This document shows positions 22,214 to 37,125 of a DNA stretch of 37,348 bases, in pieces. Positions within the stretch are counted from its first letter, which is position 1, and each line of letters starts with the position of its first letter. The stretch spans positions 1-37,348 of the forward strand of contig JBBTVG010000013.1 in the NCBI GenBank assembly GCA_038063375.1. Direction: 5' to 3'. The notes beneath the pieces are model-generated. The model was not told the origin of the DNA and ran no database searches. It saw only the letters and a list, made by a program, of their open reading frames with translations. Both the position numbers and the translations under genes were made by a program. The stretch is from Patescibacteria group bacterium. GTDB lineage: Bacteria > Patescibacteriota > Minisyncoccia > Phycocordibacterales > JANLHH01.

Positions 22214-23143
22214 TCACTCTTTGATAGCACAACGCGCTTTGAGTTCTTTGCGGTCGTCATCTGTCAGTTTTTCGTTCGTGCTCGTATTAAGCCTGTACAT
22301 AATAGCTTGGGGATTCTCTATATGCTGGAGTCCTAGCGCGTGCCCAAACTCGTGTGCTAAAACTCGCACCAGTTTATCGCGGTTGCTGAATTCGTAAATA
22401 TTTATCTCCTGTTCGCCTCCGCTCTCTTGGTAGTCTCCTTCGGTAAATTCTTCACCGCGCGATGCACCGATTTCATTATACTTTTCCACGCTTAGATTAA
22501 GCGAAGCTACCAGGCGATTGAGTACTACCACCAACGAATTGATATTCTCCACATCTTCATGGAGATTCATTTCGAGTTTTTGTATTTCTGCCAGCTCCGC
22601 TTGAAGTGCCGTTTTTTCTTCTTGAAGCTGTTCATATTCTTTTTTCGGAGCCCCGCCTTTTTTATTCCAATACTGTACTGCTTGATCGTAAGCATCTTTC
22701 TTCTCTGTGAATGAAGCTGCACGCGTATCGTAATCTGTTTTTGCTTGTGTGTATTCTGCGCGGAGCGCGCCGTATTTTGCTTTCAACTCATCGTACGAAG
22801 CTCTGTCTCCCTTCACCACAATACCAAGACTCTCTAATTTATTGGTCGCCTGCTGACGATAATCGTAGACGAGGTTTATTGTTAGCTCTCCGGACTCTCC
22901 ATAAACAAAAAGTTCTTTTCCGATCGGCTTCTCCCATGTGACCTCGGCTTCTTCGATCGCGCTTAAGAAAGCTTCTCTCGAGAGGCCAAATTTGTCATCG
23001 AACGAACCAATCGTGTACGTGATCGGTTTTTCGCACGGAGCATATATGAAATATGAGGTAAGGATATCCTTAATTGGCTGCTGAAACGCATAAGCAAAAG
23101 CGCCAAGGATGACTATGATTACTATCGTTTTAATACTTTTCAT
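22214..23143 (-). CDS. Matrixin-like zinc metalloprotease with coiled-coil insert
   Basis: The product is 309 aa from the ATG at 23141-23143, 5 nt after a TATACT box. A signal-anchor (about 5-20) is followed by a domain with two Cys (C37, C304) and a beta-rich stretch, then a long charged helical region at about 115-225 that looks like a coiled coil (DELKAKYGALRAEYTQAKT, EEKTALQAELAEIQK). The zinc motif HEFGHALGLQH is at 264-274, with a Met-turn-like AIMY at 280-283, as in M10 matrixins. It should cut proteins outside the membrane. The coiled-coil insert ahead of the catalytic motif is unusual and may span the envelope or bind a partner. The structured element follows the stop. Confidence 0.88.
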   Translation of the reverse strand: MKSIKTIVIIVILGAFAYAFQQPIKDILTSYFIYAPCEKPITYTIGSFDDKFGLSREAFLSAIEEAEVTWEKPIGKELFVYGESGELTINLVYDYRQQATNKLESLGIVVKGDRASYDELKAKYGALRAEYTQAKTDYDTRAASFTEKKDAYDQAVQYWNKKGGAPKKEYEQLQEEKTALQAELAEIQKLEMNLHEDVENINSLVVVLNRLVASLNLSVEKYNEIGASRGEEFTEGDYQESGGEQEINIYEFSNRDKLVRVLAHEFGHALGLQHIENPQAIMYRLNTSTNEKLTDDDRKELKARCAIKE

Positions 23144-23154
23144 ATAACAGTATA
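23144..23154 (-). promoter_or_regulatory. -10 box of leaderless promoter for the metalloprotease
   Basis: TATACT on the minus strand (23149-23154) is 5 nt before the ATG at 23143. It lies in the 40-nt gap after the SanA/YdcF stop codon. No clear -35 hexamer is seen. Confidence 0.5.
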
Positions 23155-23183
23155 TCCAACACTCTTCGGAGTCCAAACCTGGA

Positions 23184-23828
23184 TCATGGGTAATTCCTCC
23201 CGTCACCCATGATAGGTATCGTATCTCCCAGATACTTTGGCTGTCGGTGAAAGATCAGATTGAGTGCTGCCTTCTCATTGGCAAGCACTTCGTGAACATA
23301 GTTGCGAAAGAGCATATGACCCACATCCGCATTTACTCCATATGCGGTTATTCCAAGTCGGCGTGCGATAAAAACAGCACGGGGCAAATGGAATGATTGG
23401 GTTGCGATAAGAACGGAGGTGACGCCAAAAATATCGCGAGCGCGGTACATAGTGCTGTACGTATCAAATCCGGCGTGATCAAGGAAAATATCCTGATCCG
23501 GAATACCCTTACTGATAAGATAAAGGCGGACCGGATTCACTTCGTTGTGGCTCACAGTGCTGTTGTCGCCAGAGACAAGAATTTTTGACACTTGTTTCGC
23601 TTCATACAATTTAATAGCCATATCCGCACGGTCAATAAAGATTGAGGAAAGTGAACCATCTTGGAAGATAGCCGCACCGGGAATGAGCGCCACCTCGACG
23701 TTCGGAGCCTCCGGAGCGTCATCATATATATATGGTTTTGCCCCCAAGAAAATAACTATATTGGTGACAAGAATGACCGCAATTAAGAGCCCAAAACCCA
23801 GTGCAATAAAAAAGAAAAGGCGCTTCAT
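23184..23828 (-). CDS. SanA/YdcF family (DUF218) membrane-anchored protein
   Basis: The product is 214 aa from the ATG at 23826-23828, which is 6 nt after a TATACT box; a longer frame starts upstream and is rejected. A signal-anchor (about 3-25) is followed by a DUF218 domain: VALIPGAAIFQDGSLSSIF, KILVSGDNSTVSHNEVNP, FLDHAGFDTYSTMYRARD and TQSFHLPRAVFIARRLG. E. coli SanA is an inner-membrane member involved in envelope integrity and vancomycin resistance at high temperature. Here the exact role is unknown. It ends 40 nt before the metalloprotease start. Confidence 0.88.
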   Translation of the reverse strand: MKRLFFFIALGFGLLIAVILVTNIVIFLGAKPYIYDDAPEAPNVEVALIPGAAIFQDGSLSSIFIDRADMAIKLYEAKQVSKILVSGDNSTVSHNEVNPVRLYLISKGIPDQDIFLDHAGFDTYSTMYRARDIFGVTSVLIATQSFHLPRAVFIARRLGITAYGVNADVGHMLFRNYVHEVLANEKAALNLIFHRQPKYLGDTIPIMGDGRNYP

Positions 23829-24572: not shown

Positions 24573-26333
24573 TTATTTAAAAACCTGCTTGGGGGAGAAA
24601 AAATCCGCAAAGTCGTGATTGCTTATTCTTGCCTCTCCATCGCGTTGCTTCTCTACAAACCTACATATACCAGAGGAGGCATTATGAAACTGTGGCCCCT
24701 TATCTAAAGGTATCCAATATTTTGTAAACCCAGCAAATCCCTCCACTGCATCACTGGGATCAAAGAGTCCCCAAAAAGTCTCAATATCATCTAGACAAAG
24801 AAATAGAGGAGGATTTTGTTGTAGATGGGTAAGTTTTTTATCGGAAATCTCTTTGTCGTAAAAATTATTGAAGGCATTGAACAGATCATGATTGCCTAAA
24901 AGATTTTCTGTGACTAAAACAGGAATTACTGTTTTACCATCACTTTGAACTTTTTCTATATAGTCGTTAAGCTTTATTAACTTACCTCTGTCATTCTTAC
25001 CTCTTGCTCGTGAGTCTGTCTTTCCGGTATTAAAAAGAAGCCGATAAGCATCGTCAAGAAATTCCTGTGAGGTTGGATTATACAAAGATGATAATCGATA
25101 ATATTCGGTTGTAAATTCAATAATAAAAATTTTATCCCCCTGTTCGACAAGGGCGTCCGCTCCAGAGGTACCGCCAAAAGTGACCTTTGCATCCTTAAAG
25201 ATATTTTGTATTAGAAACTTAAAATACTCTTCCATTAGACGACCGTAGGCAGATTTAAAGTTCTGCAAATTTTCTGCATTTCTAATTCGCCACAGTAAGC
25301 CCCCACACACGTTTTCAATAAGAAATTTCAAATCAATTACGCAATAGTACCCATCTTCTATTTTAAAAATAGGATTGTCGAAAAAGACTCTGATGTTTTT
25401 GTTGTATCCCGTTATGGGGTCTCGCTCCCTTGTGCTTTCTTCCACTGCAGACACCCTGAGTGCATCCGTTCCCTTCGAGAGAGTATCTATTGTTTTGATA
25501 AAAGAAGGATCTTTTTCAAATAACTTCGCGTCAATATAAAAAGAGCTTATATTCATAAAATCAAAACCAAGTTTTGGTTGACCGGGAGGTGGCGGACTCT
25601 TTGCGTGTTGAAATGGCATTTCAAAAAACCATGCAAATAAACCATTGATGACCTTCATATATTCTTTCAGAGAAACTCCTGCTCTCTCTTCGAATGCACG
25701 AATACCTGACTCCATCATCGCCTTATCCGTATTTCCGAGTTTGGATAGTAGTATTTCGTAGCAATAGCGATAACGAACCAATCTGTGCCCATAAACAAGC
25801 CTTGCGGTATCGGAAAGATAGTAGTGTGGCCATTCCCTGATGAAGTGATCTCTGAGAAATGTCTCTTTTGAAGAAGCCTCCGAGCTGCCAACTTCTAGAC
25901 TAATTAAGTCATTATTGAAAAGTATAGCTTCGCAATATTTCTTCTGATTCACCGAATGACCTTCTCCTGTCAGCTGTTGAGTCCCTCGTATGTTCTTAGT
26001 AAGAATTTGACCAATCAGATTTAAGAGATTTTCTCTATGAAAAACTATTTTATTCGAAAAACCAGTACCTTTTGGCACAACTTTAGTTTCCTCCAAAAAA
26101 GTAACTCCTCTTACCATGGTCATTTCCGTAGTGCGAGTCTGGCAGATCATATTAAGAAAAGATGTGAATTGTATCAACTCAACAGGGTTCATTTCTTGTA
26201 GGAGATACTCAATTTGAGTTTCAAAATCCTCTACCGTCTTCAAAGAACTAAATAACAGCACGAGGCCACTCTTTTCAAAAGTGTTGAAGAGTTCGGAGTA
26301 TGTGAGATATGTGACGATTGCCGTTTTTTTCAT
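24573..26333 (-). CDS. Unrecognised 586-aa protein with PD-(D/E)XK-like nuclease core
   Basis: I do not recognise this protein by name. It has 586 aa from the ATG at 26331-26333 (a non-ATG start upstream would overlap the 1132-aa gene and is rejected). The first ~360 residues are helical with few motifs. At 364-410 there is a helix with GRLMEEYF (E368/E369), then TFGGTSGADALVEQGDKIFI and IEFTTE, which gives D393 and E406-x-T408 in the spacing of a PD-(D/E)XK nuclease with Thr in place of Lys. A similar core is used by many restriction and anti-phage enzymes. The C-terminal third (about 420-586) may bind DNA or a partner. It is the last gene of the operon, 7 nt after the 1132-aa gene. No signal peptide is seen, so it is cytoplasmic. 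Confidence 0.72.
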   Translation of the reverse strand: MKKTAIVTYLTYSELFNTFEKSGLVLLFSSLKTVEDFETQIEYLLQEMNPVELIQFTSFLNMICQTRTTEMTMVRGVTFLEETKVVPKGTGFSNKIVFHRENLLNLIGQILTKNIRGTQQLTGEGHSVNQKKYCEAILFNNDLISLEVGSSEASSKETFLRDHFIREWPHYYLSDTARLVYGHRLVRYRYCYEILLSKLGNTDKAMMESGIRAFEERAGVSLKEYMKVINGLFAWFFEMPFQHAKSPPPPGQPKLGFDFMNISSFYIDAKLFEKDPSFIKTIDTLSKGTDALRVSAVEESTRERDPITGYNKNIRVFFDNPIFKIEDGYYCVIDLKFLIENVCGGLLWRIRNAENLQNFKSAYGRLMEEYFKFLIQNIFKDAKVTFGGTSGADALVEQGDKIFIIEFTTEYYRLSSLYNPTSQEFLDDAYRLLFNTGKTDSRARGKNDRGKLIKLNDYIEKVQSDGKTVIPVLVTENLLGNHDLFNAFNNFYDKEISDKKLTHLQQNPPLFLCLDDIETFWGLFDPSDAVEGFAGFTKYWIPLDKGPQFHNASSGICRFVEKQRDGEARISNHDFADFFSPKQVFK

Positions 26334-26340
26334 AAGTTTA

Positions 26341-29300
26341 TTAAAGCAGATCTCTGAAATCATCAATCATTCCAGCTTCTGACATAAGATAGTTGATCAA
26401 AACATCAGCATCTTTTTTAGCTTCCTCGTTTCCTGTTGATTTTACGAGTTTAATTACTTCCTTGTACTCATCTTTTTTATAGAGATATTCGTACGTTTCT
26501 CTTTTTGGTTTTACTAATAGATCAAGTATCTTGATTGTTTCGACCGGAAACTCAATCGCATAAGATTTTAATTCCTCGACGATTTCATATGGCACATCAA
26601 TTTTACTCTTAACAAATCCGAGAGTTTTTATCATCCGAACTAGAGTATCTTTTCTTTTAAAAGGACTGACCTTAAACCACCATCCAAATTCTTGTAGCTC
26701 TTCCTCGCTCACTTCTTCTTGGGGTAATGAAATTCTCTTATCCCATAAATCACAAAGTCGTTTTTTGACCTCATCTTTATTACTAAAACCACTAAGATCC
26801 CGCAGAATTACTCTACCGGCAAAATTAATCGCTTCAGCCCTTGCTTTGGGTGTGGCAACTTTAAAAAAATGATTTACAAAATTATCATGTTCAAATTCGT
26901 TAACATATATAACCATCACGTGTTGAGGAAATCTCTGTTCAACATCCGCGCCACGATATCCTTTTTTCTCGACAGTACCGATATGCGGTATAAAATCGTA
27001 ATACTCCTGCTTTAAGAGCGTGAACAATTCTTTTATGACATTGTTTGCAAGATAACCCTCCCATGAAGCAAGGAGGTATTTCGGCTCAGTTTTAGGAAAT
27101 ATCTTTTCCTTATTTGCCTTAAGCCAAGGCTCGTTCAAGTAAAATAGATTTGGTAACCTCCACCCGTATACAGATCTGATTGCTAATGATGGATCCTGTT
27201 TTATATCAAGATGTTTATCAAGCAACGCGGTCATTTCGGGTGGCATTTTTACCTCAACAGATTTGTCCTCAAGGTTTCGTGCAACCCAAAGACCATAATT
27301 GACAACCGCATGAATAGCTTCACCACGCGTAGTGTTTATTGCTAGCGTCATTGGGTCAAGACCTCCTTCGCCATCCCTCTGTTCATCTGCAGGAGTTGGT
27401 TCAGGGTCTTCTGAGAGATTAAGAATTATTGCCCAAACCTTCTCTCTAAGAGACATGGGGATGTTACAGGTATCTTTTCCAAGGGCATGACCGAGAAAAT
27501 CAGCAACGGCTCTTTGCACAGCATTCCAATCCTGCTCATCATTATTTGCTGGTTCTGATACGCGAGTATTTTCTACAAGAATTTTGTAGTAAATATTTAT
27601 GATAGAAACCCAATCAAAACTCTTTCCTTTTTGTAGAGCATCTTTAAGGCCGTGTGTGAGGTGGTAAAAAAATATTGGTCGTATCTTTTTTACAAAAAAT
27701 GATTCTGCAACTAAAACATATTTCTCAGGATTTTCTGCTACCAACCCAGAAAAGACCATGCCTAAACCACCAGATGAATGTCGAGCAAATGGATCGTCTG
27801 GAATTTTGTAATCAACAAAATACTGTAGAGTATCTTCTGCGCTCAATACTGATAACTCTTCAGATGAAATAGGACTTTGACCGCCATCCCATGTAACTAT
27901 TTCTCCATCGTTGTCTACAGACTCACCGTACTTCTTTACAATTTCTCCATATTCTTTTACCTCCTTTTGAGGTAACTGATCTTTAATTGGTTTCAAATAT
28001 AAACCTTTCCAGTCAGCCTGTACTCTCGTAAATTGCTCATCCGTAAGGTTGTCGTTCTTTTTAAAATCTGGACCTTGTTCAATGATTTTTAAGATTGTAT
28101 CTTTTGCATTTTTAGAAAGTTTTGAATATTCCTTACCCAATAGTGGAAGATATTCCCTTCGAAGGTTATAGGCAATTATGATTTTTTTATCAGAGAGAAT
28201 TTCTTCAATTTCCTTCGCAAAAGGGTTCGGATTGGTTGAGTAGGTTAGTATCTCAATGCGTCTAAACAATGCCCACGAATGAGTGCGCAATATAACAACA
28301 AATTCCCTTAATACTGTTTCGTCACCTTTATTATTTTCAATTAAATTTACCAATCCATCAAGAAGGATATTCTTTGCATCTTCTCGATTTAGTCGAGCAG
28401 ATAGTAAATTTGGGCGCCAGATATGCGAATACTCATAAAAACTATCTTCTGGATTGATTCTCCCTTCAAGTTCTATGGCCTGTCTAAGTGTAGTGGCAAA
28501 AATTGAGAATAAACCCACAGGATCCTTCTCCTCCAATCCTGCGAGTTTCTTTTTTACAATCTCGCCGAGTCTCCATGCATCAAAATGGGGCTTCGCATCA
28601 TGGCGAATAATAGAAAGAGGGTCGTCTGGATTATCGGATGTCTTAATGGGGGGGTCAACTTTCGTGTCAAAGAGTATCCTCGCAAGCTTCAAAGCTGTTT
28701 TAGTTTTACCGGCTCCCGCAAGTAAATCCATTAAGTCTGCGACTTTGTCTGGCAGGAGAAGATTATATGAATTTTGTATCCATTTATCTTTACAAATCAA
28801 ATCAACATATTGTTCAGCTATTTCTGGCGGAGATTTGATGGCCGCACCAACAAAATCATCCAATACAGATTGATTGGTAGATTTTAAATCCTTAATAATA
28901 TCAAAAACTTCTTGCGGTTTTTTGTCGGCTATTCTCAGCAAGTATTGAGATTCAGGCCATACAATAAATCGAATATAGCCACCTTCACGTAAAGGTTCCT
29001 GAGGACTTGAGAAAGTGTTGATGGATTTTAGATGTTCTAACCAGTTAGGGTTATCGCATCTTTGAAAGAAATATCGACGATGTTCGGACTTAGAAATGCA
29101 TTTCGTAAGATTGCTTATATCGTCAGAAGTCGGGTTTTCAATTGTAAGTAGTTTATCAATTTCAGTAATTCCGTCGAAAAAAGTCCTTTCTACAAGAATT
29201 TGATACAGGAGATCCTCGTACTTCCATACTCGTGCTTCAAAGTCTTTCTCTTTAATATCTGAGGATTTTGTTCCTTTTAGGTATCCGTGTTTTGAACAAT

Positions 29301-29739
29301 CGTTGAAAAACGTGTGTAGCTCAATCCAGTCACGTACAAAGTTTTCTTTAAGGTATTCAGGTAAGGCATTACGTTCGGGATGTTTATCTAAAAGATCCTT
29401 CAAGATTGCACGTTGATTTTCGTTACCTTTTGTTTGTTCAGTTGGATTCTCGGTTTCTGGAATTGGAATACCTTGGAAATAACGTGGCAGTATAGAAGTC
29501 AGCTCCCTGGCGGAATGACCGACCTGCCCGATACGATCAGGGTTTCTCTTGTTGTTAAATGTGAGTACCAGTCCTTCATATATTTCACTCAGCCTCTTAC
29601 TTAGTTCAAGCGACTCGGGATCTATTTTTGAGAGAGCGTTCCTAATCTTCTTTTGTTTATCTTCGGCAGATGACAATACATCCTCAGTGTTTACTGAGTT
29701 CAGTAATTTATCTTTCTCATTAGTTTTGTCATCTGGCAT
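26341..29739 (-). CDS. Unrecognised large helical protein (1132 aa), defence-island type
   Basis: I do not recognise this 1132-aa protein by name. It is almost all alpha-helical, with many helix pairs that suggest HEAT- or ARM-like repeats. The N-terminal segment (about 44-90: ELSKRLSEIYEGLVLTFNNK, then NPDRIGQVGHSARELTSILP) is of a kind I have seen at the N-terminus of large hypothetical proteins in defence regions. Near 345 is LLAGAGKTKTALKLA, which is not a proper P-loop. No nuclease, helicase or membrane motif is seen. The C-terminal region (about 1020-1132) is charged and helical. It starts 2 nt after the Res stop and is 7 nt from the 586-aa gene, so it should be made with both. It may act as a sensor or scaffold for the putative nuclease, which is inference. 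Confidence 0.75.
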   Translation of the reverse strand: MPDDKTNEKDKLLNSVNTEDVLSSAEDKQKKIRNALSKIDPESLELSKRLSEIYEGLVLTFNNKRNPDRIGQVGHSARELTSILPRYFQGIPIPETENPTEQTKGNENQRAILKDLLDKHPERNALPEYLKENFVRDWIELHTFFNDCSKHGYLKGTKSSDIKEKDFEARVWKYEDLLYQILVERTFFDGITEIDKLLTIENPTSDDISNLTKCISKSEHRRYFFQRCDNPNWLEHLKSINTFSSPQEPLREGGYIRFIVWPESQYLLRIADKKPQEVFDIIKDLKSTNQSVLDDFVGAAIKSPPEIAEQYVDLICKDKWIQNSYNLLLPDKVADLMDLLAGAGKTKTALKLARILFDTKVDPPIKTSDNPDDPLSIIRHDAKPHFDAWRLGEIVKKKLAGLEEKDPVGLFSIFATTLRQAIELEGRINPEDSFYEYSHIWRPNLLSARLNREDAKNILLDGLVNLIENNKGDETVLREFVVILRTHSWALFRRIEILTYSTNPNPFAKEIEEILSDKKIIIAYNLRREYLPLLGKEYSKLSKNAKDTILKIIEQGPDFKKNDNLTDEQFTRVQADWKGLYLKPIKDQLPQKEVKEYGEIVKKYGESVDNDGEIVTWDGGQSPISSEELSVLSAEDTLQYFVDYKIPDDPFARHSSGGLGMVFSGLVAENPEKYVLVAESFFVKKIRPIFFYHLTHGLKDALQKGKSFDWVSIINIYYKILVENTRVSEPANNDEQDWNAVQRAVADFLGHALGKDTCNIPMSLREKVWAIILNLSEDPEPTPADEQRDGEGGLDPMTLAINTTRGEAIHAVVNYGLWVARNLEDKSVEVKMPPEMTALLDKHLDIKQDPSLAIRSVYGWRLPNLFYLNEPWLKANKEKIFPKTEPKYLLASWEGYLANNVIKELFTLLKQEYYDFIPHIGTVEKKGYRGADVEQRFPQHVMVIYVNEFEHDNFVNHFFKVATPKARAEAINFAGRVILRDLSGFSNKDEVKKRLCDLWDKRISLPQEEVSEEELQEFGWWFKVSPFKRKDTLVRMIKTLGFVKSKIDVPYEIVEELKSYAIEFPVETIKILDLLVKPKRETYEYLYKKDEYKEVIKLVKSTGNEEAKKDADVLINYLMSEAGMIDDFRDLL

Positions 29740-29741
29740 TT

Positions 29742-32555
29742 TTAACTATTTTGGGTTAATAACACCGCCACAGTAGAACTGACAGTAATCTTTTCTGTTG
29801 GGACAATTACATATCGCCACGGTTTTGTTATGCCGTGTTTACCCACATTCGCTGAGACAAGCTCGCAATACTTGTCTGCGGTCTTCTTTTTCTCTTGTAC
29901 GTCTAGGTCTTTTATCTCACCGCTTGGCTTTACTTCAATCATTACGATTTCGTGTTCAAACTCAACTACAAAATCTGGCTCGTAGCGATGTTGCGAATTA
30001 CCAGCTTCATCACGCCAGTACAGTCCCTCGAATTGATTCGGAGCAGGCCTGAGCCAATCTTCCACTGACGGCTCTTTATCGAGAAGGTACGCCATTCGTG
30101 CTTCATCCGAAGAATCAAACCTGTACATTGAGTGGCACGCTTTCTTAAATCCTGTATAAATCTTGTCTCTTGAGAAACGGTCAAGTTGCGACTCCAAAGT
30201 TACAGGTTTTTCATCAAAACTTCGAGAGATGTTGTACTGCTCCAAATATGATTTTGGTTCACGAATACTGGACTCTAAATAACTCTCAGACTTGAACTCT
30301 TTGTGAGTTAAAATTTGATCGTATATTTCTTTGGCAATCTGACGGAAATTATTTTCCACCATCATTTTGAGTGCACTTACGTCACTGACAAATGATTTGT
30401 AATGCGCGACCGCCTGATTTGAAAGCTTAAGTAGCAATTCCTTTTGATCATCATAGTCAACAAGCGGATAATCAAGGAGTGCAGAAATGATAGTATTTTC
30501 TGGACTTTGTGCTCGACCTTCACCAAGGCTTGAAACACGAGTAATTTCAGTCTCCCGGTTTCCTTGGTAAGCAACGCCGAATAAATCCTTCTCTTCTTTG
30601 CCTTGTAACGCTTGTTCAAGGATTGAAGCGTCCGTAGCAAATTTACTTAATTTTGTTAAGTCTAAGTCAAAATTATCAATTGTAAGTTCGCCATAATGGG
30701 GTGTGAGCATCAACCTAGGAATAGGGATGTTACGAATCTCAATAGTCTGTTTGGAGATACGCCCGATGTCTTCGAGTTCTTTTTTCGCGGACTCACTTAA
30801 AATAGTAAACAGTGATCCTTCCTCGTATACGGCATCACTCGTCTGAGTACCTATCTTGATTGCTTCGTTCTTTGCCGTTATCTCTACAATCTCATTTATC
30901 TTATTTTGTATCGTCGCCACTTTTACATCTTCTGGGGTGTCGTCTGAAATAACAGCACTGACTGTTTTTGTGGCCTGTGCCTCAATTTCTTGCATAAGGC
31001 TTCCACTTGCCTTGATTTGCTCCTGAATGCTTGTGACAAAAGCTGACTGCACCTCAATTACCTCTCTTACTACTTTCGTGTCGTCGGTAGAAATACTTTC
31101 AATATTCGATGGCTGTATAAGCTTGGAGTGTTGTGCCTCCTCAATCACTTTCGCATAATTATCATGAGCAACAATCATTACACGATCAACATTTTTATTC
31201 CCCGTTTTTTCTCCATACGGCAAGCGAAGGCCACGGCCAATTGTTTGCTCAGTTAAAATTTGTGCCGCTGAAGACCTGATTGGGGCAATAGTGTAAATGT
31301 TTGCAACATCCCAACCCTCCTTGAGCATATTCACATGGATGACAATTTCCACGATGTTATCTGGGTGTTCAAGTGATATAAGCTTTTCAATTGTCTCATC
31401 CGCTTCGTCGCCTTTTGTTTTTGTATGAACTTCGATTACCTTGCCCTTGTAGGCACCTCCTCTAAATTGATCGCTATCAATCAGTGCGCGCAGTGCACTT
31501 GCATGAGCGGTGTCTTTCGCCACCACAAGCATCACAGGCTTCACTTCTTGTTTGTTATTTTCAAGAGCATATTCTTTCAAAGCAACTTTCGTGCGTTCAT
31601 GAAAAAAGGCGGCGAGCTGTAGTTTACGAGCATCGGTTTCTATGGACTCCGCATCCCACTGGCCAAAATCAACATCGGCTTCTGTGCCTACCCACGGATC
31701 TTTTACATACCCGTCCCGAATAGCATTTCCGAGATTATATGCGTAGAAGATATTTTTCTTGAGAATAAGCCCCGTGCCTTTCTTTGTACTCGTCGGAGCA
31801 AGATAGGGCGTAGCAGTAAATTCAAGTCCAAACAAAGGGTTTATACGGTCAAGCGAACCCATTGCCGCATCGGCATGGTAGTGGTGCGATTCATCCATCA
31901 ATACAACAAGATCATCGAGAGAGCTGAGATATTCAAAATATGATTCCCCGAGCATTTCACTAAACTTGGTAATACCTTTTTCTTTCTCTATATCCTTTTG
32001 CGCAAATTGCTGAATATTGAAAATGTTAATTTCTATCTTGTTTGCAAAAAGTTGCGCCATCTGGCTTTGGGCATAGTTGTCCTTGGTGATAACTTTTACA
32101 TTCGAAGTCGTAAGCTCTTCAATTCCTCGAAAAACATACTTGGGATTGTTGGCTTTACTGAAGTCATCTACCAACTTGCGATAAATCGTATTGCCAGGAG
32201 CAACGATCATAAAATGCTGTATGCCGTAAACAAGGTAGAGATACGCTACAAAGGCACCCATAAGACGAGTTTTGCCCACACCTGTAGCCAGTGCAAAGGT
32301 ATATGCAGGGAAAGTTCGTTCGAAAGATTGAAACTGTCTCAGGTCGGGTATTGCTTGAGAGTACTCTTTGGTCAAGGCCTCAATATCCTCGACGCTTCCA
32401 CGATTTTCTCTCTTCATTCTCGCCAATACCTTTTTGCCAGCATCTCCTTCTAGATAGTCAGCAAAAAACACCAAGCTTTTTTCTTGAGGATCTCGCAAAC
32501 TCATTGCGTTTGTTATGTATTGCAGGGCTTGTTCTCGGTTCATAAAAGTAGACAT
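29742..32555 (-). CDS. Type III restriction enzyme, Res subunit (helicase-nuclease)
   Basis: The product is 937 aa from the ATG at 32553-32555, 1 nt after the Mod stop; longer starts would overlap the mod gene. The superfamily 2 helicase core has ATGVGKT at 90-96 and DESHH at 221-225, with EFTATPYL a little later and the motif VI-like EQTIGRGLRLPYG in the second RecA domain. The C-terminal PD-(D/E)XK nuclease is seen at EPDFVVEFEHEIVMIEVK, with D861, E874 and K876. So all parts of a type III Res are present and appear intact. It should cut DNA near unmethylated paired sites, driven by ATP, together with Mod. The gene is followed 2 nt later by the 1132-aa gene. Confidence 0.92.
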   Translation of the reverse strand: MSTFMNREQALQYITNAMSLRDPQEKSLVFFADYLEGDAGKKVLARMKRENRGSVEDIEALTKEYSQAIPDLRQFQSFERTFPAYTFALATGVGKTRLMGAFVAYLYLVYGIQHFMIVAPGNTIYRKLVDDFSKANNPKYVFRGIEELTTSNVKVITKDNYAQSQMAQLFANKIEINIFNIQQFAQKDIEKEKGITKFSEMLGESYFEYLSSLDDLVVLMDESHHYHADAAMGSLDRINPLFGLEFTATPYLAPTSTKKGTGLILKKNIFYAYNLGNAIRDGYVKDPWVGTEADVDFGQWDAESIETDARKLQLAAFFHERTKVALKEYALENNKQEVKPVMLVVAKDTAHASALRALIDSDQFRGGAYKGKVIEVHTKTKGDEADETIEKLISLEHPDNIVEIVIHVNMLKEGWDVANIYTIAPIRSSAAQILTEQTIGRGLRLPYGEKTGNKNVDRVMIVAHDNYAKVIEEAQHSKLIQPSNIESISTDDTKVVREVIEVQSAFVTSIQEQIKASGSLMQEIEAQATKTVSAVISDDTPEDVKVATIQNKINEIVEITAKNEAIKIGTQTSDAVYEEGSLFTILSESAKKELEDIGRISKQTIEIRNIPIPRLMLTPHYGELTIDNFDLDLTKLSKFATDASILEQALQGKEEKDLFGVAYQGNRETEITRVSSLGEGRAQSPENTIISALLDYPLVDYDDQKELLLKLSNQAVAHYKSFVSDVSALKMMVENNFRQIAKEIYDQILTHKEFKSESYLESSIREPKSYLEQYNISRSFDEKPVTLESQLDRFSRDKIYTGFKKACHSMYRFDSSDEARMAYLLDKEPSVEDWLRPAPNQFEGLYWRDEAGNSQHRYEPDFVVEFEHEIVMIEVKPSGEIKDLDVQEKKKTADKYCELVSANVGKHGITKPWRYVIVPTEKITVSSTVAVLLTQNS

Positions 32556-32556
32556 A

Positions 32557-34173
32557 TTAGTTTTCGTCAGAATCAACTTCGTCTTCGTCAACTTCTTCCA
32601 TCGCTCGTTCTTTGATAGGAAGCAGGTATTCTTTCTTTCCAAATTGACACGCCTTCAAAATTGACTGCGGTATCTTTTTGATAGTGATACGGGTATCTAC
32701 CTTCTCACATCCAGGTTCAAATTTCTTTGGACAGATGAGGAGTGTCTCGTTTGCACCAAGATGACTCACAATCTGTTGAACCATTGCCACAGAAAGCATC
32801 TGGGTTGTTACATAAATACTATTGTTGCCTTGGCCTTTACCGTGCTTCCAGTAGTCAGATGGGCTTGGGGCAAATTTGTAGTTGGTAAGCTTACACATTG
32901 CGCGAATGAGTTTGGTATCGTTGTAATAGCTATCAATTACTGGATTACCGAATTCATCAATCACCACAAAGCTTGGGGCAAGCTCGTAAAACTTGTATCC
33001 GCCTCCACCTTTCCAGTCAAGAACTTTCGACAGCTCAAGACCATCATTTCCATCCACCACTTTTTTCATTCGAGGTTGCACATGGGTATATGCGTGTTCA
33101 CCCATTTCAATACCTACGTATCTTCTACCCATCTTTTGAGCTACAGCAGACGCTGTGCCAGAACCAAGGAATGAATCGAGTATTAGATCACCAGGTTTGG
33201 TTGCTAAGTCTAAAACTCTTTTTAACAATCTCTCCGGCTTTGGTGTACTAAATAAATCCGTTTGACCGGCGAATAATTTTCTCGCCTCCGACTTAGCCTC
33301 GATATTATGTCCGACTTCAGAGTGGAACCAAAGAGAGAGCGGGACTGTTCCTTGTTGAACTTCTGAGAGAAAAGTCTTCTTATATGGACGCGAAATACCT
33401 TTTGAACCAAACCATATTCTATTATCAGATAACAGTTCTTGATACTTCTCCTTTGAAACTACCCAGCAGCGGGTAGGAGGTGGTAAAAATTCCTTCCCAG
33501 CGGGTGAAAGAATCGTATAATAATTCTTTTCAGAAAATGTCTTTACCGAAAGATTGGTTGGATACCATGGGCCACGCGAATCGTTATCAGGGTTAGAATA
33601 TTTAGCATTTAATTCATCTGACCGTTTCAGTAAATTGGGTCTCCAAGAGTCCTTGGACTTTGCATAAACCAAAATGTGATCGTGTACGTCTGATAACCAC
33701 TTAGCATCATTTGATGCGGCGTACTTCTTTTGCCATATGACATTTGCTACAAAATTATTTCTTCCAAACACTTCATCGCATAATACTTTCAGGTAATGCG
33801 TCTCATCATCGTCGATGGATATCCAGATGCTTCCGTGATCTGGATGCAGGAGCTCTCGCAGTAACTCCAGTCTTGGCTTCATCAGGGAAAGCCACGTGGA
33901 ATGCTCTACGCTGTCGTCGTAGTGCTCAAAAGCATTCCCAGTGTTGTATGGGGGGTCGATATAAATGCACTTCACCTTGCCTTCATACTCGGGCAGGAGA
34001 GCTTTGAGTGCGAGAAGGTTGTCGCCATGGATGATCATGTTCTCGCTGTCCTTGTCGCCATATGACAGATCAGTCCGCTCTTCCAAGATACGTGGCTCAA
34101 TATTCGCAATATCATACTCGGGATTATTCTTCCCGATCCATGTAAGCTCTAGTTTTTGTTTGTTATTGCTCAT
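32557..34173 (-). CDS. Type III Mod DNA methyltransferase (beta class, N6-adenine)
   Basis: The product is 538 aa. Catalytic motif IV is DPPYNTGN, with DPPY at 73-76, and the S-adenosylmethionine motif FLGSGT is at 335-340, so the order is IV then I, as in beta-class amino-methyltransferases. The stretch between (about 130-320) is the target-recognition domain. The segment AFEHYDDSVEHSTWLSLM next to motif IV is typical of type III Mod. After the catalytic part, about 180 residues lead to an acidic tail (MEEVDEDEVDSDEN). It methylates adenine in a short asymmetric site and gives specificity to Res. The gene starts 6 nt after the SNF2 helicase and ends 1 nt before Res. The recognition sequence cannot be read from the protein by eye. 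Confidence 0.93.
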   Translation of the reverse strand: MSNNKQKLELTWIGKNNPEYDIANIEPRILEERTDLSYGDKDSENMIIHGDNLLALKALLPEYEGKVKCIYIDPPYNTGNAFEHYDDSVEHSTWLSLMKPRLELLRELLHPDHGSIWISIDDDETHYLKVLCDEVFGRNNFVANVIWQKKYAASNDAKWLSDVHDHILVYAKSKDSWRPNLLKRSDELNAKYSNPDNDSRGPWYPTNLSVKTFSEKNYYTILSPAGKEFLPPPTRCWVVSKEKYQELLSDNRIWFGSKGISRPYKKTFLSEVQQGTVPLSLWFHSEVGHNIEAKSEARKLFAGQTDLFSTPKPERLLKRVLDLATKPGDLILDSFLGSGTASAVAQKMGRRYVGIEMGEHAYTHVQPRMKKVVDGNDGLELSKVLDWKGGGGYKFYELAPSFVVIDEFGNPVIDSYYNDTKLIRAMCKLTNYKFAPSPSDYWKHGKGQGNNSIYVTTQMLSVAMVQQIVSHLGANETLLICPKKFEPGCEKVDTRITIKKIPQSILKACQFGKKEYLLPIKERAMEEVDEDEVDSDEN

Positions 34174-34179
34174 AAATTG

Positions 34180-37125
34180 TTAAATGATTTTCCAACTGAT
34201 TGTGAATAATGTTTCTATTTTTGACCTTTGCTTCAACTGAGCTTCTATTCCCTCCAGCAACTTTTCTTTTTTAACCTCTACTTCGTCCTGCGCCTCATAT
34301 AACTTTCTCCGCATTTCGTTCCGTTTTTTCTCTGAATCCTTTATTTCCCGTTGAGCCTTGAGCTTCTCCTCAAGATTAACAATTTTTTTGGCATTTGTTT
34401 TGGCTGTCTTAATGTCAATATCAAGCTTTCTCAAATCAAGCTCGAGTGCTTTCTTCACATCATCTGACCAATTGTCCAGCTTATCTACTTCATCATCAAA
34501 AAACTCACTGTTTCTTTCTGCAATCTGTCCAGAAATAACCGATATAGTTTGTTGCTCAAGCTCGTCTAGTTTCCCACACTCCTCAGATGACAATACTTTC
34601 GGTGCAACCGATTGAGCGGAGAGCGAAAATAACTTTTTAATAATATCTCTTTCAATGGGTTCACCAGCTTCATCGAGGGATGTTACGACAACAGCATCTT
34701 CCTTTTCAAAAGCTTCAACGGTGTAATTGGAAACTTTCAATATTCCACTTTTACCAACAAGAGGCTGTAGTACGGAAATAATTGATGAATGATTTGAGTA
34801 ATCAAAGACAATCTCTGCGGTATCAATCTGTTTGTTTTTTACCTCGTTCAGTATTCTTTGTGCCAAAGAATGCCCAGGGCGATATACATGGGCATCTTCT
34901 ACATTTTTACCAATTTTGTATGGACCTGGATCTATATCCTCGTTTTGGAAAGGATTTACTTTGAGAGAAAAAGAATACTCGTGCTCGGCAAAGTCAGCTT
35001 TATCCCCCAAGTAGTAACGGGTGACATCCCATAGCCAGCGTTCATAGGTATCAAGGTATGCCTGACTCTCTCTTTGATTGAGTTTAAGTTTTTCGTGGAC
35101 CTCGGAATCGAAATTTTCTAGAAGCTTCTGACGGGTATCAGATAAATTACTCTGAATACTTTCATCCATCTCTTCTTGGAGTTTATCGAAAGCAGTATTG
35201 ATATCTTCGGAAGTTCGGCATGTCTGATAAATACCAGCAATACGCTTTTCAAAATCCACACCAGATTCAATAGAGCCAAGTACCTCATCACTTGCGCCGA
35301 ACACACCTTTAAACAATTTAAACTTCTGATCTAACAGTTCATAGACGCGTTGGTCGGCTGCGTTCTTTCTATTTACAAAGTTGATTACGACAACATCATG
35401 TTTCTGTCCGTAACGATGGCAACGACCGATGCGTTGCTCGATGCGTTGCGGATTCCATGGTAAATCGTAGTTAATGACCAGCGAACAAAATTGCAGGTTC
35501 ACACCCTCAGCTCCCGCTTCGGTGGCAATCATAATTTCCGCTTCGTCTCTAAAATATTCAATCAGTGCCGCTCGAGTGTCAGCTGTCTTTGAGCCAGTTA
35601 CTTTATCGGTGTCCTTATTTTTTGCGAGCCAGTTTTTGTATATCTCTTTTGATTTATCGTCATTATTTGAACCGTTAAACAAAACGATTTTACCTTCATA
35701 ACCATTTTTGCCGAGTAGAGTCTCTGAAAGATATCTTTGTGTGATAGTGGATTCAGTAAAAATGATTGCTTTCTTCTTAGCACCTAGTTCGGCCGTCATT
35801 TCAAAACCTTTCTTGAGAGCAGTAAGTAGGGCGTCTCCCTTGGAATTTGTATATATTTTTTGTGCGAGATCACGGAATCTTTCTAGATCAGCTTTTTCAT
35901 GCTCCATGAGTACAATATCTTTCTCTGTGAGAGCTTTCTTTTCCTTCTCATCTTCATCTTCATCGCTCTCCTCATCATCAATCCATTCATCTGATACTTC
36001 TGGAAGAGCTTCAAAATCTCCTAGTAGTGATATGGTATCTACATCTTGCTGAGGTAACTTTGCTTTTGTATCTGTAATTAATCGTTCAAGCTTATATACC
36101 AATTTATCCAAGGTGCTAGCGATAGCGAAGGAAGACGATGCTAAAAGCTTTCGCAAAATGAGCGTCATGAGCTGGCGCTGACTAAAAGGTAGGGCGTAGA
36201 GCTTTGTCCGCTGAAGATACTCAGACATTCCGTCATAGAGCTCAACTTCCTGCTCAGTAGGAACATAGTCCTGTGTTATCGGCTTTCGCTCGGTATAGTT
36301 AATATATTCCAGCACCTGGCGACGGAGCGTGCGGATACAGACTGGCTTTAGGCGATTACGTAAATCGACAAACATTTCTTGCTTTGGCTCAACAAGACCG
36401 ACTTCATTCTCATAAATATCCTGCTCGCGGGAAACTCGTGCATAATTTGCTTTGAAACTTTTGAGATCACCAAATACATGATCATCAATAATACTCACCA
36501 GTCCATAGAGTTCGAGTAGGGAGTTTTGTAGTGGAGTTGCGGTAAGTAAGATTTTGGGTACTTCCGTCAGCGCATCTTTAATTTCGCGTGCAATCTTATT
36601 GCTCGTTTTATATACATTACGAAGACGATGTGCCTCATCAATTACGGCCAAGTCCCATTTCGTCTGTTTTATGTATGGAGATTTAGAGCGAGCAAAGTGG
36701 TATGAGCAGATAATTATTTTGTCTTCTTGATTGAACGGATTCAGATTTCCATCTTTTATGTACTGGTTGAAAGATTTTGCTTCAAGAATTATTGAAGGTA
36801 GAAAGAATTTCTCCGAAAGTTCGTCGTTCCACTGTTTTCGCAAACTTGAAGGTACTATCAAAAGAATACTTCTCTTTCTCTCTGCCCATTTCTGGGAGAG
36901 AACAAGTCCTGCCTCAATCGTTTTTCCTAGACCAACTTCATCTGCAAGAATTGCACCTTTTGAGAGCGGCGAGCGAAAGGCAAAAAGCGCCGCTTCTATC
37001 TGGTGTGGGTTTAGATCAACCTGAGCATTAGAAAGTGTGGAGGAAAGTTTCTCCAAACTATTGGAGGAACATCGCTTGGTCAGCTCGTAAGCAAAATATT
37101 TAGCTTGTTGATCAGTAATTTTCAT
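34180..37125 (-). CDS. SNF2-family helicase-like ATPase (981 aa)
   Basis: The product is 981 aa. The SNF2 core has DEVGLGKTIEAG (DEVGLGKT at 62-69), VIDEAHRLRN (DEAH at 163-166), LLTATPLQNS at 193-202, and in the second half IATEAGAEGVNLQFCS and INYDLPWNPQRIEQRIGRCH (motif VI, about 551-570). An acidic insert sits at about 376-395. The C-terminal ~350 residues are helical and end in a probable coiled coil (about 880-960). The DEVGLGKTIEAG form is that of RapA-like and defence-linked SNF2 proteins. It would move along double-stranded DNA and could remodel or clear bound complexes. Type III restriction does not need it, so its presence marks a composite system. It starts 4 nt after the HTH gene. 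Confidence 0.92.
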   Translation of the reverse strand: MKITDQQAKYFAYELTKRCSSNSLEKLSSTLSNAQVDLNPHQIEAALFAFRSPLSKGAILADEVGLGKTIEAGLVLSQKWAERKRSILLIVPSSLRKQWNDELSEKFFLPSIILEAKSFNQYIKDGNLNPFNQEDKIIICSYHFARSKSPYIKQTKWDLAVIDEAHRLRNVYKTSNKIAREIKDALTEVPKILLTATPLQNSLLELYGLVSIIDDHVFGDLKSFKANYARVSREQDIYENEVGLVEPKQEMFVDLRNRLKPVCIRTLRRQVLEYINYTERKPITQDYVPTEQEVELYDGMSEYLQRTKLYALPFSQRQLMTLILRKLLASSSFAIASTLDKLVYKLERLITDTKAKLPQQDVDTISLLGDFEALPEVSDEWIDDEESDEDEDEKEKKALTEKDIVLMEHEKADLERFRDLAQKIYTNSKGDALLTALKKGFEMTAELGAKKKAIIFTESTITQRYLSETLLGKNGYEGKIVLFNGSNNDDKSKEIYKNWLAKNKDTDKVTGSKTADTRAALIEYFRDEAEIMIATEAGAEGVNLQFCSLVINYDLPWNPQRIEQRIGRCHRYGQKHDVVVINFVNRKNAADQRVYELLDQKFKLFKGVFGASDEVLGSIESGVDFEKRIAGIYQTCRTSEDINTAFDKLQEEMDESIQSNLSDTRQKLLENFDSEVHEKLKLNQRESQAYLDTYERWLWDVTRYYLGDKADFAEHEYSFSLKVNPFQNEDIDPGPYKIGKNVEDAHVYRPGHSLAQRILNEVKNKQIDTAEIVFDYSNHSSIISVLQPLVGKSGILKVSNYTVEAFEKEDAVVVTSLDEAGEPIERDIIKKLFSLSAQSVAPKVLSSEECGKLDELEQQTISVISGQIAERNSEFFDDEVDKLDNWSDDVKKALELDLRKLDIDIKTAKTNAKKIVNLEEKLKAQREIKDSEKKRNEMRRKLYEAQDEVEVKKEKLLEGIEAQLKQRSKIETLFTISWKII

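Follow-up and report, generated by a model that had tools for sequence, protein, structure and literature searches.

A gene for a Dsr1-like protein without the SIR2 domain recurs in Patescibacteria at unrelated restriction-modification (RM) loci, sometimes 10 nt or less upstream of a gene encoding a nuclease of another family. One of these loci is an operon in the window, that is, the whole 37,348-nt stretch of DNA analyzed here. We read this operon as a restriction operon carrying a plug-in Dsr1-type sensor, in which the adjoining, exchangeable nuclease (a 586-aa protein) would be the sensor's effector; we put the probability of this reading at about 0.5.

Five genes of the operon were seen, all on the minus strand. 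From its 5' end, with the parts of the last two proteins that are discussed below, they are:

34180..37125, minus strand: DrmD-like SNF2 helicase, first gene of the operon (NCBIfam model DISARM_DrmD_b: 712 bits against a cut-off of 950).
32557..34173, minus strand: Mod, a type III DNA methyltransferase (Pfam N6_N4_Mtase, E 1e-46; PADLOC MTase_III).
29742..32642, minus strand: Res, a type III-like helicase/restriction subunit with a C-terminal TnsA-like nuclease domain (Pfam ResIII, E 9e-20; Tn7_TnsA-like_N, E 5e-7; PADLOC REase_III).
26341..29739, minus strand: 1132-aa SIR2-less Dsr1-like putative sensor (open reading frame; PADLOC Dsr1 PDLC04166; NCBIfam; dN/dS).
29200..29739, minus strand: the N-terminal segment of the putative sensor, about 180 residues (a separate gene in several relatives; weak profile matches).
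26383..29184, minus strand: the Dsr1-like helical part of the putative sensor, residues 186-1119 (PADLOC alignment range; helical secondary structure in a low-confidence model).
24573..26333, minus strand: 586-aa GapS1-like PD-(D/E)XK-type protein (open reading frame; GapS1 match; hhalign).
24909..25247, minus strand: the PD-(D/E)XK-like core of the 586-aa protein, residues 363-475 (alignments; low-confidence predicted secondary structure).

For the last two genes, the frames, strands and lengths given by the sequence-only reading agree with the list of open reading frames, and the spacing that it claimed was measured at the same values, 2 nt between Res and the 1132-aa gene and 7 nt between the 1132-aa and 586-aa genes. 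The open reading frame listed at 597 aa begins at a TTG at 26366, inside the upstream gene; the start of the 586-aa protein is an ATG, in agreement with its relatives. The G+C content of the operon genes is 0.38-0.43, well under the 0.50 of the first 24 kb of the window. Both accessory genes are under purifying selection, with dN/dS of 0.115 (1132-aa) and 0.065 (586-aa) against the Falkowbacteria CG10 copies. The source assembly, a draft of 0.70 Mb, is 98.7% complete; among named relatives, a Falkowbacteria MAG (L017) is the nearest. None of the five operon genes seen is DrmA, DrmB or DrmC of DISARM; because the contig ends 223 nt beyond the DrmD-like gene, on its 5' side, further DISARM genes are possible. 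Immediately downstream of the island, a gene at 22214-23206 encodes a Matrixin-like metalloprotease (Pfam Peptidase_M10, E 5e-12) with a coiled coil; it adjoins a gene for a DUF218 protein.

The two proteins had been described as lacking a recognized family, which does not hold for either. The PADLOC Dsr1 model PDLC04166 matches residues 186-1119 of the 1132-aa protein with an E value of 9.1e-50, and the alignment spans model positions 289-1210 of 1227. The NCBIfam Dsr1 model gave E 2.4e-13 and 48.8 bits, below its cut-off of 1400. Searches against Pfam, NCBIfam and PADLOC returned no SIR2 match. Given the part of the model that is matched, the score below the cut-off and the absence of SIR2, we class the protein from its sequence as SIR2-less and Dsr1-like rather than as a Dsr1. 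No Pfam domain was found anywhere in it, and neither Pfam nor PADLOC revealed a recognizable effector domain. The AlphaFold2 models of both proteins were built from two to three sequences each, and only their secondary structure is usable because the mean pLDDT is 38 for the 1132-aa and 35 for the 586-aa protein. The near all-helix prediction for the former agrees with its earlier description as all helical, within the limits of this poor model. Its N-terminus had been called defense-type. Pfam lends this no domain; the segment is, however, weakly matched (E 6e-7 to 1e-5) by small separate genes of 183-190 aa that sit in front of the sensor gene in three relatives (G193, G124 and G812). PDB sequence matches of the sensor were short and to designed PPR/solenoid repeats, and were not accepted as homology.

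The 586-aa protein is a distant GapS1-like protein of PD-(D/E)XK type. It scores E 0.0071 and 15.3 bits with the NCBIfam GapS1 model (NF047931), and its orthologue at L018 scores E 2.7e-4 and 19.9 bits, both below the cut-off of 320. When its profile was aligned with hhalign to five GapS1-like proteins from Patescibacteria, which are themselves under the GapS1 cut-off, the E value was 9e-6 and the probability 83 over 387 columns that include the nuclease-like core. It has no sequence match in the PDB. The PD-(D/E)XK-like core proposed earlier is borne out in part. The acidic residues E368, D393 and E406 are present and invariant, but Thr408 (E406-F-T408) stands where the catalytic Lys is expected, and does so in all four orthologues, whereas the five GapS1-like Patescibacteria proteins keep E..D..E-x-K. 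The site thus departs from the canonical E/D ... D ... (D/E)-x-K pattern by its Lys to Thr replacement. In the poor model (pLDDT 35), residues 353-475 run helix-strand-strand-strand-helix-strand, with a helix at 353-378, strands at 383-387, 393-398 and 401-408, helices, and a strand at 468-475; this order is compatible with a PD-(D/E)XK fold. In several active PD-(D/E)XK families the Lys varies or moves, and the predicted nuclease may still be active.

A survey of Patescibacteria genomes for the sensor gave about 13 further loci; with the window included, ten loci have visible upstream sequence. In six of these ten, a raw count from few loci and among defense genes that cluster anyway, the sensor gene lies in or directly behind RM genes:

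Window: DrmD-like, Mod and Res before the sensor; GapS1-like 586-aa protein after it.
G001: HsdR and HsdS (type I) with an interrupted HsdM region; the sensor gene overlaps HsdS by 29 nt.
G522: N6-MTase and EcoRI-like before the sensor.
G649: C5-MTase and HaeII before the sensor.
G193: N6/N4-MTase and DpnII before the sensor; Mrr_cat nuclease 10 nt or less downstream.
G124: PLD-SNF2 helicase and Eco57I methylase before the sensor; PDDEXK_1 nuclease 10 nt or less downstream.

The remaining four (G273, G812, G870 and G880) are without RM genes. A nuclease gene follows within 10 nt in the window, G193, G124 and G880, the last being DpnI-like; no family-supported nuclease lies directly downstream of the sensor in G001, G812, G870, G273, G443 or G707. 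In the sensor tree, RM-linked members fall on several branches, which are long and uncertainly placed.

Two members differ in architecture. At G273 (L004:1210-4707), a SIR2-less Dsr1-like protein is fused to a LexA-type DNA-binding HTH (E 4e-15), which hints at a possible transcriptional role for this member. At G284 (L052:5796-9263), a protein of 1155 aa combines a HamA-like (DUF1837) N-terminus (PADLOC, E 2.8e-8) with HEAT repeats and weak Dsr1-like segments; since the Dsr1-like part matches weakly and in two pieces, we keep it as a possible fusion of a HamA-like nuclease to a Dsr1-like sensor. Several neighboring genes were also recorded. At G649, the HaeII-type endonuclease gene is immediately preceded by a single open reading frame of 591 aa (L051:14679-16454) in which a RadC-like JAB domain is fused with a C5 cytosine DNA methylase. 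The HsdM region of G001 (L013:1229-3543) appears, by eye, to be broken by a transposase-like gene of 226 aa on the opposite strand. Inspection by eye suggested nuclease-like motifs in two genes downstream of the sensor, of 158 aa (G649) and 317 aa (G522), as well as an HEPN-like motif (RNNILIH) in a 192-aa neighbor at G112; these were left uncounted.

Outside the phylum, the Vibrio coralliilyticus plasmid pOCN014 encodes SIR2 as a separate gene immediately before a Dsr1-like gene. In haloarchaea, plasmid-encoded proteins of about 1390-1510 aa (L028, L030-L034) have a Dsr1-like C-terminal region behind an ATPase-like N-terminus, which in several is AAA/nSTAND-like.

The sequence-only reading took the two genes for a module of their own that could travel independently of the restriction core, and this part of it is not supported. 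The search for close relatives of the 586-aa protein yielded three genomes, with identities of 93% (L017), 68% (L018) and 65% (G471). In L017, the order Res-1132-586 and the convergent neighbor are both as in the window, and the 7-nt spacing is kept at 93%/88% protein identity. The L018 orthologue (genome G882) is encoded 6.7 kb downstream of a related Mod-Res, with other genes between and without the 1132-aa gene, and the G471 orthologue has neither the 1132-aa gene nor an adjoining RM gene. Whole-genome searches found no 1132 homologue in G882, in G471 or in G100, which holds a distant relative of the 586-aa protein. About 13 other sensor loci carry no 586-like gene, and 228 further genomes of the class yielded no new relative of the 586-aa protein. 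No relatives were recovered when viral contigs were scanned with both alignments, and none of the 586-aa protein in plasmids or phages. A shared second partner of the 586-aa gene in L018 and G471 was considered and dropped, as the adjoining proteins are unrelated. The pair was not found without restriction genes: it occurs together only in the window and L017, two close genomes, both times at Res, and elsewhere the genes occur singly. Its absence elsewhere, which the sequence-only reading had named as a refutation, is thus nearly complete. From the shared order in L017, the orthologues without a 1132-aa gene and the 228 empty genomes, we conclude that the pair is seen in a single lineage, always linked to Res, and is no independent traveling module. 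A restriction operon with a plug-in sensor is the better supported description.

The same distribution raises the alternative that two independent genes happen to lie side by side, with the 586-aa protein acting on its own as a single-gene GapS1-like system and the 1132-aa protein working with the restriction enzymes or alone. We consider this a serious possibility, one that we do not favor. Because orthologues of 65-68% identity persist in G471 and G882 without any 1132 homologue, the 586-aa protein does not need the 1132-aa sensor. GapS1-like proteins of Patescibacteria likewise occupy mixed contexts: the four loci inspected, of about 19 kb each, have mixed surroundings and no sensor. (The run of genes at one of the four, on G124 contig 3, includes a gene of 1023 aa that resembles, by eye, a restriction-type methylase.) The type I example G001, conversely, has the sensor with no nuclease gene directly after it. 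Against independence stand the 7-nt spacing kept across two genomes, the sensor relatives that are directly followed by a nuclease of another family, and a sensor with no recognizable effector domain of its own.

It is improbable that the 1132-aa protein is instead a regulator or extra subunit of the upstream RM system and does not sense phage on behalf of a separate effector. The position of the sensor gene in or directly behind six RM loci, its 2-nt gap to Res and its 29-nt overlap with HsdS in G001 would fit such a subunit. However, the RM systems involved belong to types I, II and III and are not related to one another, which makes a shared subunit interface unlikely; members without RM genes exist; and the homology is to Dsr1, which elsewhere is accompanied by SIR2. 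That the 586-aa protein has a nuclease fold but no catalysis and serves as a binding or regulatory partner, as the conserved E-F-T might be taken to say, is very improbable given its invariant acidic residues, the strong purifying selection on its gene and the variable Lys of active families.

Returning to the operon with a plug-in sensor, we propose a layered defense in which an RM core (DrmD-like helicase, Mod and Res) would be backed by two accessory 3' genes. Judging by its homology to Dsr1, the 1132-aa protein has most likely kept the ability to sense a phage protein. Its effector would be supplied in trans by the exchangeable nuclease encoded alongside; in this operon that nuclease would be the GapS1-like 586-aa protein, brought into play when restriction fails. 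The sensing, the activation of the nuclease and the backup to restriction are what we infer; the dependence of the 586-aa protein on the sensor is uncertain, because it can live without the 1132-aa gene. A division of labor between sensor and nuclease, as first suggested from the sequence, is supported by a Dsr1-like putative sensor that has no effector domain, a neighbor with a predicted nuclease fold and sensor relatives that adjoin other effectors.

Dsr1 and DSR2, as known so far, each consist of one polypeptide that includes a SIR2 NADase. If our reading is true, the Dsr1-type putative sensor is a plug-in part that can be attached to unrelated restriction systems and various nucleases, and the RM systems of small-genome Patescibacteria have a built-in second line of defense. 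In the literature searched, of which coverage was partial, we found no description of RM-linked SIR2-less Dsr1-like proteins. A broader idea, which we regard as speculative and rather unlikely, is that SIR2-less Dsr1-like proteins serve RM systems of types I, II and III in general as an add-on sensor, which fires an interchangeable adjoining nuclease upon restriction failure; they would then form a new class of RM-linked second-line immunity, represented here by a Lys-less GapS1-like nuclease.

The operon resembles several known systems in part. A type III RM system with a DrmD-like helicase accounts for the three upstream genes, whereas the accessory sensor and nuclease genes are no part of it. 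DSR2 offers a parallel to the mechanism proposed for the 1132-aa protein, in which a helical solenoid would recognize a structural protein of a phage and trigger an effector: DSR2 binds the tail tube protein via its middle domain and its C-terminal domain, and the C-terminal one is an alpha-helical solenoid (PMC11087589). Unlike the arrangement proposed here, its effector is in the same chain, and no sequence match to DSR2 was seen. The 586-aa protein shares with GapS1 (NF047931) an alignable nuclease-like core, with profile-profile similarity (E 9e-6) to the phylum's GapS1-like proteins; it differs in the low score of its family, 15-20 bits against a cut-off of 320, and in the Thr that replaces Lys. 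The split SIR2 pair of pOCN014 also places a separate effector gene beside a Dsr1-like gene, but there the effector is SIR2, it precedes the sensor, and no restriction genes are annotated in the 14 kb shown. Dsr1 itself shares the long C-terminal helical region (residues 186-1119 against model positions 289-1210, E 9e-50); it carries an N-terminal SIR2 NADase, whereas the 1132-aa protein is without SIR2 and sits in a restriction operon.
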